Of a stretch of 64,000 nt of DNA, positions 37,626 to 42,914 are shown piece by piece; the stretch's first letter is position 1; every line of letters starts with the position of its first letter. Under the pieces are notes generated by a model, which searched no databases, was not told the origin of the DNA, and worked only from the letters and a program-made list of their open reading frames with translations. The translations under genes and the position numbers were made by a program. Location: assembly GCA_019136655.1 (NCBI GenBank), contig JAGVTU010000018.1:1-64000 (forward strand), written 5' to 3'. This stretch comes from Bacteroidota bacterium. GTDB taxonomy: Bacteria > Bacteroidota > Bacteroidia > AKYH767-A > OLB10.

Positions 37626-37644
37626 TTAATGTAACTTTACATGG

Positions 37645-37652
37645 CAAAATTA
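37645..37652 (-). promoter_or_regulatory. -7 promoter box TAATTTTG of the aminotransferase operon
   Basis: Exact TAnnTTTG match on the minus strand, 19 nt from the ATG at 37625; it lies within the 45-nt divergent region shared with the Kelch gene. Confidence 0.5.
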
Positions 37653-37670
37653 ACTTTTATAAAGGAAGTT

Positions 37671-38864
37671 ATGAAAATTAAATTTTTAGGTATTTTCTTG
37701 CTGTTTTCAACATCAGCTTTTGCTGAATATGTTTGGACACAAAAGGCTTCATTTCCGGGAGATGCACGCTTCGAAACAGCATCTTTTTCTATAGGAAATA
37801 ATGGCTATATCGCCTGTGGAATTGCTTATTCAAATATAGTATATAATGATTGCTGGCAATGGAATTCAACTTCCAATACATGGTCACAAAAAGCATCTTT
37901 ACCGTCAACAGCTCGTTATGGATGTAGTGGATTCTCCATAAATGGGAAAGGCTATGTGGTTTGTGGTTGGGTGAGTAATCAAAATCAGCTTAATCAACTT
38001 TGGGAGTATAATCCTGATAACAATAATTGGACACAGAAAGCATTTTTCCCTGGTTCAAGTCGCTATACAGCTACTGTTTTTACCATAGATAATTTGGCTT
38101 ATGTTGGGTTAGGGTATAGTCCATATAAATCGGACTTTTACAGGTATAATGGCGTTTCAAATACATGGTCGCAGATAGCAGATTTTCCCGGAATACCCAG
38201 ACAGAATGCAAGTGGATTAAGTTTAAACGGAAAAGGTTATGTCATTGGCGGACATGTGGACCCTGATACAGATTATAATGATTGCTATGAGTATGACCCT
38301 GTCACTGATACATGGACACAAAAAGCAGATTTTACAGCCCTTGCCAGATTTGGTGCTACAGAATTTGTATTCAACAATACAGCATTTTTTGGAATGGGAG
38401 GATCGTATCAGGCAAACTATAATGATTTTTACTCTTACAATCCGGTAAATGATACCTGGAAATCAGTCACACCATTGCCTTCAGCATCACGTAAAAGCGG
38501 TGGCAGTTTCAGTATTGGAAATGCAGGATATGTTTATGGAGGAAATTTAATGAACAACTTGCAGTCCAGCGAACTTTGGGAATTCTCTGAGAAAAATACA
38601 CCTACGGACACAACAAAATTATTTTCAATAAATCCCTATCCCAATCCCTGTATAACTGAGTTTAGCATCAACACCACAGGCATTTTCAAAAGCGGAGCGC
38701 AACTGCTTATTTATGCCAGTGATGGCAAACTGATTCAGAAAGCTGATTTAACAGATGGCGTTAATGTCATAAAACTCAAACATGGAATCAGCACCGGAGC
38801 CTACCACGCAAGATATATTCAGGACGACTATAAAGCCTCATTCAAATTTGTGGTGATGAGGTAA
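37671..38864 (+). CDS. Kelch-repeat beta-propeller protein with T9SS type A tail (copy 1)
   Basis: A 397-residue secreted protein. From ATG 37671, preceded by AAAGGAAG, it begins with a signal peptide (MKIKFLGIFLLFSTSAFA). Six Kelch blades follow, each with a WxQKAxFPGxAR turn, GYV(I)xGG-type double glycine and a YxPxTDTWT strand. The C-terminal ~80 residues are a T9SS type A tail (INPYPNPCITEFSIN ... YKASFKFVVMR). It closely resembles the product at 41736-42914, including the start EYVWTQKAS, so the two are paralogues about 3 kb apart. Kelch propellers bind proteins or glycans; the ligand is unknown. Confidence 0.86.
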   Translation: MKIKFLGIFLLFSTSAFAEYVWTQKASFPGDARFETASFSIGNNGYIACGIAYSNIVYNDCWQWNSTSNTWSQKASLPSTARYGCSGFSINGKGYVVCGWVSNQNQLNQLWEYNPDNNNWTQKAFFPGSSRYTATVFTIDNLAYVGLGYSPYKSDFYRYNGVSNTWSQIADFPGIPRQNASGLSLNGKGYVIGGHVDPDTDYNDCYEYDPVTDTWTQKADFTALARFGATEFVFNNTAFFGMGGSYQANYNDFYSYNPVNDTWKSVTPLPSASRKSGGSFSIGNAGYVYGGNLMNNLQSSELWEFSEKNTPTDTTKLFSINPYPNPCITEFSINTTGIFKSGAQLLIYASDGKLIQKADLTDGVNVIKLKHGISTGAYHARYIQDDYKASFKFVVMR

Positions 38865-38900: not shown

Positions 38901-38992
38901 TCACTTTCCTCCGCTCACCCGTAGCCCTAAAGGGCGCTGACGCTCTTAAATACGTTGTGCGTTGTCACCCCTTCAGGGGTCGGGGGTGAGCA
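38901..38992. repeat. Structured dispersed repeat, full copy A
   Basis: A roughly 90-nt unit that recurs at 39581-39674. It has two internal hairpins, GCCCT-AA-AGGGC (38924-38935) and ACCCCT-TC-AGGGGT (38967-38980), and outer arms GCTCACCC (38913-38920) and GGGTGAGC (38985-38992) that are perfect reverse complements, so the whole unit can fold. A 28-nt stretch (38916-38943) is identical in the other full copy. Confidence 0.8.
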
Positions 38993-39042
38993 CGAGCTAT
39001 GATTCGTATTGAATTTAAGAACAACTTGTCCTCACGAATGCT

Positions 39043-39050
39043 TATCTTTG
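39043..39050 (+). promoter_or_regulatory. -7 box TATCTTTG, 3 nt from the DUF559 start
   Basis: Exact TAnnTTTG match. Only three bases separate it from the ATG at 39054, implying a leaderless message or use of the next in-frame ATG at 39066. Confidence 0.5.
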
Positions 39051-39053
39051 AAT

Positions 39054-39437
39054 ATGGAACGTAAAATGTTTTATGGAGCTAAGCCAGATATATTCTTTAA
39101 AGCTAAATGGCTTCGAGAGAATATGACAGCAGCTGAAAAACTTTTATGGAAACAGTTAAATAAGAATAAGCTGGGATTTCGGTTTAAACCACAACATCCG
39201 ATAGACGTTTACATTGTAGATTTTTACTGTCATACATTAAATCTTGCAATAGAGTTGGATGGGGAATCTCATAAAAACAGTAAAGAATATGATCAAGACA
39301 GAACTTTTGAGCTTGAAAATTTTGGAATTAGGGTAATCAGATTCAACAACTCCGAAGTTTTTCAAAATATCAATAAAGTAATAGCTCAAATTAAATATGT
39401 CATCAACGAGTGTAGAGTAAATAAAGACACTACTTAA
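39054..39437 (+). CDS. DUF559 (Vsr-like) endonuclease-fold protein
   Basis: A 127-residue protein of the DUF559 family, related to very-short-patch repair endonucleases. It contains the family order LRENMTAAEKLLWKQLNKN, GFRFKPQHPIDVYIVDFYC, AIELDGESH and the end IRVIRFNNSEVFQNI. The Asp in IVDFYC, Glu in AIELDG and following His are the expected metal and catalytic residues and are intact. Function in the cell is not established; the family is frequent beside repeats and is sometimes attached to mobile elements. Here it sits between copies of a structured repeat. ATG 39054 is preferred to a TTG at 39009; 39066 is also possible. Confidence 0.88.
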   Translation: MERKMFYGAKPDIFFKAKWLRENMTAAEKLLWKQLNKNKLGFRFKPQHPIDVYIVDFYCHTLNLAIELDGESHKNSKEYDQDRTFELENFGIRVIRFNNSEVFQNINKVIAQIKYVINECRVNKDTT

Positions 39438-39493
39438 GTTTAAATATTGATATTGAAAAAACAAGAAACTCTATTGTTCTTATATTTCGTAGC

Positions 39494-39530
39494 GCGTTGT
39501 CACCCCTTCAGGGGTCAGGGGTGAGCGCAA
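39494..39530. repeat. Structured repeat, right-half copy C
   Basis: Matches the right half of copy A: GCGTTGTCACCCC, the ACCCCT-TC-AGGGGT hairpin and GGGGTGAGC. The left half is missing, so the DUF559 segment may have been joined to a broken copy. Confidence 0.7.
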
Positions 39531-39580
39531 GCGATTTGAATCATTCTCGAATAGGTTTACTGTTTAGTTTTTAAGTACAG

Positions 39581-39674
39581 TTACTTTCCACCGCGCACCC
39601 GTAGCCCTAAAGGGCGCTGACGCGCATCAAATACGTTGTGCGTTGTCACTCTTTCAAGGGTAGGACCGCGAGCA
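39581..39674. repeat. Structured dispersed repeat, full copy B
   Basis: Second full copy of the unit at 38901-38992, same orientation. The left half, including GCCCT-AA-AGGGC, is nearly identical; the right half has decayed (ACTCTTTCAAGGGT in place of the perfect hairpin), and the outer arms no longer pair well. Confidence 0.78.
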
Positions 39675-41735: not shown

Positions 41736-42914
41736 ATGATGAAAAAACTACTTTTCTTATTGTTTGCAACAACAATAGCCCATGCACAGCAATATGTGTG
41801 GACACAAAAAGCGAGTCTCCCAGGCAGTTCTCGTCATTCTTCAATTGGATTTTCTATAGGCCAATACGGTTACATTGGTACAGGATATAGCAATGGAGTT
41901 TGCTTAAACGATTTATGGCGTTATGACCCTGTAAGTAATTCATGGAGTCAGATGGCAACGTTGCCCGGTGTAGGCAGATATGGTGCGAGTAGTTTTGTGA
42001 TTAATAACCAAGGTTATGTTGGAGTTGGTCAAACAACTTCCAACGCACTTTCAGACTTTTATAAGTATGATCCTGTGACCAATCAATGGACATCCATAGC
42101 AAATTTTATAGGCCTGCCAATTTATACTGCTGTTTCGTTTGCTCTCAATGGACTTGGATATGTTGCAACAGGATATGCTCCGATTTCCAATTATGTTTAT
42201 CAGTATAATCCTGGAACCAATACATGGCAGCAAAGAGCGAATTTTTCAGGAATAGCACGACAAAGTGCCACATCATTTGTAGTGCATGATACAGCTTATG
42301 TTACAACAGGCTATGATGGTATGTCAGGGTTAAATGATTTTTGGCGGTTTAATCAGTTGTCTGACACCTGGACTCAGTTACAATCAATTCCCGGTAATCC
42401 GAGATATGGTGCAATTGGTTTAACAGTAAATAATAATGGAATTATTACCAATGGAGGTGATGTGGCAGGAAATTATTATACCGATTGCTATCAATATATG
42501 CCGGCCATAAATCAATGGCTTACCATTGCACAGTTTCCGGGAGTTGGAAGAAGACATTCAGCTTCGTTCAATATTGGACCTGATGGTTATATTTCATGCG
42601 GTGTAAGTGCTGCAGGGGTTCTTAACGATCTCTGGGAACTATCTCAGGTAACATCAGTAAACAATCCATTGCCCGAGTTGCAAATAACATCTCAGTATTT
42701 TTCTGCTTCCAAAACATTGTTGGTAAAAAATCAATCTGCAACAGCAGCAGAGGTTACACTCTACAGTTTGTCGGGTAGCAAGGTTGCTGCACATTCAATA
42801 CCAGCTGGTGAGGAGTATTTTTTTCAGATGAACGACATGGCAAAAGGAATTTATCTGTGCAGAGCTGCTGCAGATAATTCACAACCTTTCGTTACTAAAT
42901 TCTCTGTCAATTAG
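41736..42914 (+). CDS. Kelch-repeat beta-propeller protein with T9SS-like tail (copy 2)
   Basis: A 392-residue secreted paralogue of the protein at 37671-38864. Signal peptide MMKKLLFLLFATTIAHAQ, then QYVWTQKASLPGSSR and six Kelch blades (SFVINNQGYVGVG, NDFWRFNQLSDTWTQL and similar). The last ~75 residues form a beta-sandwich tail (LLVKNQSATAAEVTLYSLSG ... GIYLCRAAADNSQPFVTKFSVN) consistent with a T9SS type A signal. A DUF4907 lipoprotein follows 55 nt later; Kelch and DUF4907 genes are often neighbours in this phylum, which suggests they act together at the surface. Confidence 0.86.
   Translation: MMKKLLFLLFATTIAHAQQYVWTQKASLPGSSRHSSIGFSIGQYGYIGTGYSNGVCLNDLWRYDPVSNSWSQMATLPGVGRYGASSFVINNQGYVGVGQTTSNALSDFYKYDPVTNQWTSIANFIGLPIYTAVSFALNGLGYVATGYAPISNYVYQYNPGTNTWQQRANFSGIARQSATSFVVHDTAYVTTGYDGMSGLNDFWRFNQLSDTWTQLQSIPGNPRYGAIGLTVNNNGIITNGGDVAGNYYTDCYQYMPAINQWLTIAQFPGVGRRHSASFNIGPDGYISCGVSAAGVLNDLWELSQVTSVNNPLPELQITSQYFSASKTLLVKNQSATAAEVTLYSLSGSKVAAHSIPAGEEYFFQMNDMAKGIYLCRAAADNSQPFVTKFSVN

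Follow-up and report, generated by a model that had tools for sequence, protein, structure and literature searches.

Palindromic repeats around a DUF559 nuclease gene in a Bacteroidota genome, and a proposed homing-type element

REP/BIME sequences with their RAYT enzymes combine many short palindromic intergenic repeats with few copies of one linked enzyme, Rickettsia palindromic elements are palindromes that sit in coding genes without breaking the reading frame, and BoxC/triplex repeats were already known in the 1990s. We know of no nuclease gene inside the Rickettsia elements. For the triplex motif, Holder et al. described 23 copies in MG1655 and its presence in more than 260 genomes (PMC4666352); in that 2015 study the origin of the BoxC/triplex repeats remained unclear and no mobility genes were seen nearby (PMC4666352). 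A cyanobacterial genome paper has already placed a DUF559 gene in the EDxHD homing endonuclease family (PMC9403480), and the recombination hotspots found in Legionella experimental evolution include three segments that carry a DUF559 gene together with a transposase (PMC12308824). We found no paper tying DUF559 or ycjD to palindromic repeats, in a literature coverage that left out most subscription journals and bioRxiv preprints.

The window analyzed here, a 64,000-nucleotide stretch of a Bacteroidota genome, carries two full copies and one right-half copy of a foldable repeat around an intact DUF559 gene (38901-39674), all on the forward strand, and the sequence bears out the earlier note's description of this arrangement, including its hairpins, outer arms and common orientation. 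Copy A (38901..38992, +) is a solo-type unit in which a left end is joined to a right end: a left outer arm, GCTCACCC (38913-38920), is followed after 3 nt by the hairpin GCCCT-AA-AGGGC (38924-38935), a linker, the hairpin ACCCCT-TC-AGGGGT (38967-38980) and, after a further 3 nt, the right outer arm GGGTGAGC (38984-38991). The nuclease gene (39054..39437, +; longest ORF 39009-39437) matches Pfam PF04480 with an E value of 1.7e-33 and 115.2 bits, against a curated cut-off of 20.6. The ATG at 39054 is likely its start, and, numbered from there, the protein keeps the family-invariant residues E28, D56, E67, D69, H73, R83, R96, and N99. Copy B (39478..39526, +) is a right end only, with 88% identity to the right half of copy A, and comprises a hairpin (39502-39515), a 3-nt spacer and the arm GGGTGAGC (39519-39526). 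Copy C (39583..39674, +) shares 89% identity with copy A across 82 nt and has an intact left end, with arm GCGCACCC (39593-39600) and hairpin (39604-39615), and, as had been noted, a decayed right end; the 28-nt core CACCCGTAGCCCTAAAGGGCGCTGACGC does not differ between copies A and C. Each half-repeat pattern matches twice in the window and never in 100 shuffles. The 92-nt unit had been located correctly but drawn too short, as about 35 nt more on the right are common to several copies. Nothing in the window reached the Rfam gathering score. In PADLOC, the window protein had no more than a weak mREase_II match, and the second DUF559 copy described below had none. Two similar Kelch-type proteins, which look like paralogues, flank the region (37641-38864 and 41736-42914).

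A genome-wide search excludes one of the two outcomes that would have refuted the earlier note, namely a repeat found only here. At E<=0.001 the genome has 25 copies, of which many consist of just a left or a right half, alongside two DUF559 genes, and 21 of the 22 copies tested lie outside any ORF of at least 100 aa, agreeing with an intergenic placement. At several loci (L002, L007, L011, L012, L013, L016, and L019) the repeats stand in mosaics with the palindromes GGCTAAAGCC, CTCCGCCATAAATGGCGGAG, CCCGGCAAGAGCTTGCCTCTTGCCGGG, and CCGCAGTACTGCGG, which are possibly further repeat families. The second DUF559 gene (L029) sits in frame inside metH, the methionine synthase gene; in its product the Met_synt_B12 activation domain gives two separate match stretches, the larger of which is preceded by DUF559 as an additional domain, and the left junction reads CCTCACCCCCAACCCCTCTCC-AAA-GGAGAGGGG, an end built like those of the repeat. 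MetH is uninterrupted in three genomes of the same genus, one of them 97% identical in protein, and at the window locus the sister genome G021 has the same Kelch gene and then two repeat copies, including the orthologue of copy C, without DUF559. None of the three sister genomes yielded a DUF559 match at E<=1e-5, and their repeat counts were 21 (G021), three (G023), and none (G022).

The association of gene and palindromes recurs far beyond this genus. Eighty DUF559 loci from Bacteroidota, Pseudomonadota, Chloroflexota, Nitrospirota, Planctomycetota, Spirochaetota, Patescibacteria, and others were set against 136 shifted windows and against 30 GIY-YIG nuclease loci, the latter from the same phylum as a second, Bacteroidota set of 29 DUF559 loci. 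Across the 80 loci, GC-rich hairpins occur at 3.46 per kb within 250 bp of DUF559 and at about 0.25 per kb beyond, an approximately 14-fold difference, and at least one hairpin lies within 350 bp at 62/80 loci compared with 24/136 shifted controls. GIY-YIG genes also have some hairpins nearby (1.28/kb). More discriminating is a three-block end, defined as an outer arm, exactly 3 nt, and a hairpin, the arm being mirror-related: 78 hairpins near DUF559 score with a 3-nt spacer and at most 10 with any other. This motif was found within 350 bp of 46 of the 80 loci and 18 of the 29 in the Bacteroidota set, against none of the 30 GIY-YIG loci and 6 of the 136 shifted windows, and literal CTCACCC/GGGTGAG sites give a concordant result. 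The strict motif is missing from 34 of the 80 loci. The window repeats have the arm and the 3-nt spacer, with stems of 5-6 bp and a mirror match below the strict threshold, and look like short-stemmed members of the same architecture. In relatives and in other phyla the link between DUF559 genes and repeats of this design is strong, and the second outcome that would have refuted the earlier note, DUF559 genes in relatives without such a link, did not occur either. Of 393 Bacteroidota genomes, 166 have DUF559 and 227 do not; the pattern YCACCCCNNNCCCYCTCC is present in 31 of the former and 12 of the latter (p=3e-5), and its reversed form is nearly absent. One Bacteroidota genome, G045, has the pattern 20 times and no DUF559 match at E<=1e-15; together with G021 it shows that repeat copies can outlast, or do not need, a resident DUF559 gene.

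In E. coli the DUF559 gene is ycjD (b1289), located between sapF and fabI, and approximately 200 bp from it lies CCCCTCGCCCCTCTGGGGAGAGGGTTAGGGTGAGGGG, which fits the BoxC/TMECO triplex motif. The gene is present in about 3,365 of 5,426 E. coli genomes, and in 60 genomes spread over the ranking the median number of BoxC-matching places was 18 in strains with ycjD and 5 in strains without it (p=2e-9, uncorrected for phylogeny). The DUF559 element family apparently includes the BoxC repeats. At ypfG-tktB (L246-L249), three strains lacking BoxC have REP-like sequence there instead, and the two seem to replace one another at this site, by exchange rather than clean insertion. No target-site duplication is visible at metH or at this BoxC site, short replacements being seen instead, and no clean insertion boundary was found. 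The sapF-fabI interval was considered as a clean empty site and set aside as uninformative, because the ycjD-negative strains examined (L141-L143, compared with L140) have an MFS transporter gene in place of ycjD.

The residence in metH is one case of a common arrangement. Among the 150 best Bacteroidota DUF559 matches by score, 51 lie in stop-free frames of at least 290 aa and 39 in frames of at least 800 aa. Hosts identified by Pfam or NCBIfam are MetH, LeuRS, a class I tRNA synthetase (ValRS by eye), methylmalonyl-CoA mutase, Lhr helicase, TatD, and alpha-xylosidase, with HisF, IspF, IspG, HsdM, and HsdS among those read by eye only. Hairpins mark the N-side junction in 34 of 48 cases and the C-side junction in 25 of 48, compared with 12 of 180 control windows, and the palindromes are translated in the host proteins, for example as the peptide PHPQPLSKGEG. 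In four genomes that are at least 99% complete, an interrupted LeuRS without a stop is the sole copy detected, and it is therefore presumably functional. To judge from sequence, the element often resides in frame within essential genes and seems to leave them working. An intein was considered as its identity and rejected, since Pfam scans of seven DUF559 host proteins, at E<=1e-10, detected DUF559 without any splicing domain. In one genus 185 genomes have a MetH match; most of these are uninterrupted at this site and roughly 30, counted from weak or split matches, are not. In the MetH of G382, the element replaces a linker that reads EAQKDGKSSS in relatives. Linker sequence at the common LeuRS site is hypervariable. 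Where MetH and LeuRS homologues are uninterrupted, their linker has no palindromes, which indicates that the palindromes come with the gene. In the linker of the uninterrupted G328 LeuRS (L238), KVLSPNVQ stands where occupied copies read KVLSPTLSEGKG, possibly the scar of a lost element.

DUF559 copies from the same insertion site mostly cluster in the tree across host families, as for MetH (5 rows, 99/90), the mutase (3 rows), and an HsdR-like group (3 rows from 3 families, 100/100). Copies at the LeuRS site need several origins; some of the site sharing may therefore mean no more than that certain linkers tolerate insertion. The site-specific lineages could also still be due to vertical inheritance with many losses. 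Whether in frame or stand-alone, the copies keep catalytic residues that are invariant or nearly so. An AlphaFold model of the window protein (pLDDT 88) matches 3hrl, itself a DUF559 protein, followed by I-Bth0305I (Foldseek E 2.7e-4, TM 0.69 by target length) and, more distantly, Vsr, whose fold had been attributed to the family from the outset. On this model, the closest predicted fold of known function is that of the homing endonuclease I-Bth0305I. We saw no intron or intein around DUF559.

We propose, with a probability of roughly 0.6, that these loci represent a homing-type, palindrome-bounded DUF559 nuclease element with non-autonomous solo repeats. In this model, the DUF559 nuclease, of Vsr/EDxHD fold, would be the sole protein of the element, whose ends would be three-block palindromes made up of an arm (CTCACCC/GGGTGAG), usually 3 nt, and a hairpin. 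Gene-less repeats such as the 92-nt unit would be non-autonomous derivatives made of a left end fused to a right end. As a mechanism, we propose that DUF559 recognizes either the ends, folded or triplex-prone as they are, or an allelic site that lacks the element, and then cuts, the break being repaired from an element-carrying copy with replacement of a short stretch of the target; break repair of this kind, which copies the element, would account for replacement with no duplication of the target. In coding genes, ends and ORF are read through in frame, and copies in flexible linkers may survive as inserted domains without splicing. Cleavage, end recognition, mobilization in trans, and repair are all inferred in the absence of cleavage or transposition data, and the action of the nuclease on the hairpins, which the earlier note had suggested, is likewise an inference that remains to be demonstrated. 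Further points against the proposal are the repeats in genomes without DUF559 (21 in G021, and the pattern in 12 Bacteroidota genomes), the 34 of 80 loci without the strict motif, the window's own repeats below its threshold, the absence of a target-site duplication or clean boundary, the E. coli correlation left uncorrected for phylogeny, and the several origins at LeuRS sites. Of its two proposals, a REP/RAYT-like or a homing-type system, the latter is supported by the predicted fold, the in-frame insertions with uninterrupted sister alleles, and the site-specific lineages, whereas the former survives only as an analogy, with no tyrosine transposase linked.

The same observations bear on explanations that separate the gene from the repeats. 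The palindromes could be an independent family spread by other means, into which DUF559 inserts as a homing endonuclease; repeats that outnumber DUF559 genes and occur in genomes lacking one, and the homing-endonuclease fold, would all be accommodated. We regard this as unlikely, as in relatives whose MetH and LeuRS alleles are uninterrupted the site lacks a palindrome, indicating that the palindromes arrived with the gene, and we detected no further gene with a link to the repeats. DUF559 might also be a Vsr-like mismatch-repair enzyme that is carried or retained in unstable palindromic regions and does not drive their spread. The DUF559 domain of Caulobacter CCNA_02930 (VsrA), a protein proposed for very short patch repair (PMC12907096), speaks for such a role, as does the presence of Vsr among the fold matches, but it leaves unexplained the in-frame copies in many unrelated genes, the site-specific lineages and the 3-nt-spaced ends in many phyla, and is improbable for us.

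Still less credible is a RAYT as the agent of repeat spread, with DUF559 merely incidental. The repeats are REP-like in copy number and in lying between genes, but the link to DUF559 recurs across phyla, and a RAYT driver was rejected in the window genome, where a single Y1_Tnp gene exceeds the cut-off and no repeat copy was seen in its flanks. We give scarcely any weight to the remaining possibility, that the hairpins merely represent ordinary transcription terminators, or palindromes of a kind common between genes, in the vicinity of small genes. Some hairpins do lie near GIY-YIG genes, but the three-block motif is confined to DUF559 loci in the comparison with GIY-YIG and rare in shifted windows, and a large number of DUF559 copies are located within coding genes, where terminators are unexpected and where junction hairpins nevertheless exceed the control frequency.

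If the homing-type reading is correct, the insertions in LeuRS, MetH and similar enzymes would be explained by a non-splicing homing-type element, and a function would be found for a widespread family still named for its "unknown function". We can advance only tentatively, at somewhat below even odds, the broader claim that DUF559 elements form a separate, phylum-crossing mobile class, with a bare nuclease and triplex-type ends, spreading by replacement and not by clean insertion, residing in frame in essential enzymes, and giving rise to E. coli BoxC and to the widespread CTCACCCC/CCCTCTCC palindromes. Should DUF559 prove to be the BoxC enzyme, the long-open question of BoxC origin could be put to the test in E. 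coli K-12, a strain that has ycjD as well as BoxC.

Compared with known systems, the DUF559 elements resemble REP/BIME-RAYT in their many intergenic short palindromes and few genes for a linked enzyme, and differ in that this enzyme is a PD-(D/E)XK/Vsr-fold nuclease rather than a Y1 tyrosine transposase and is also found in frame in genes. Rickettsia palindromic elements are similarly in-frame palindromic insertions, a likeness drawn without sequence comparison, but are not known to contain a nuclease gene. The ShiLan domain (PMC11855218) is likewise an insertion readable in frame with its host, with no splicing and a homing-like pattern; there, however, an HNH endonuclease is read out of frame in a phage methylase, whereas DUF559 is in frame and palindrome-bounded. 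The BoxC/PIT/TMECO intrastrand-triplex repeats (PMC4666352; BoxC also PMC2267715) have been described as DNA-structure motifs with no mobility gene recognized, and the window repeat differs from BoxC in sequence and has shorter stems; BoxC and the ends near many DUF559 genes have in common the arm-3 nt-hairpin palindrome, and further likenesses are the intergenic position, multiple copies and sometimes inverted pairs, and one BoxC adjoins ycjD. Finally, the EDxHD homing endonucleases, including I-Bth0305I (PDB 3r3p; PMC3943268), have a catalytic fold in common with DUF559, but where I-Bth0305I has an added DNA-binding region (PMC3943268), DUF559 is a bare nuclease with palindromic ends.
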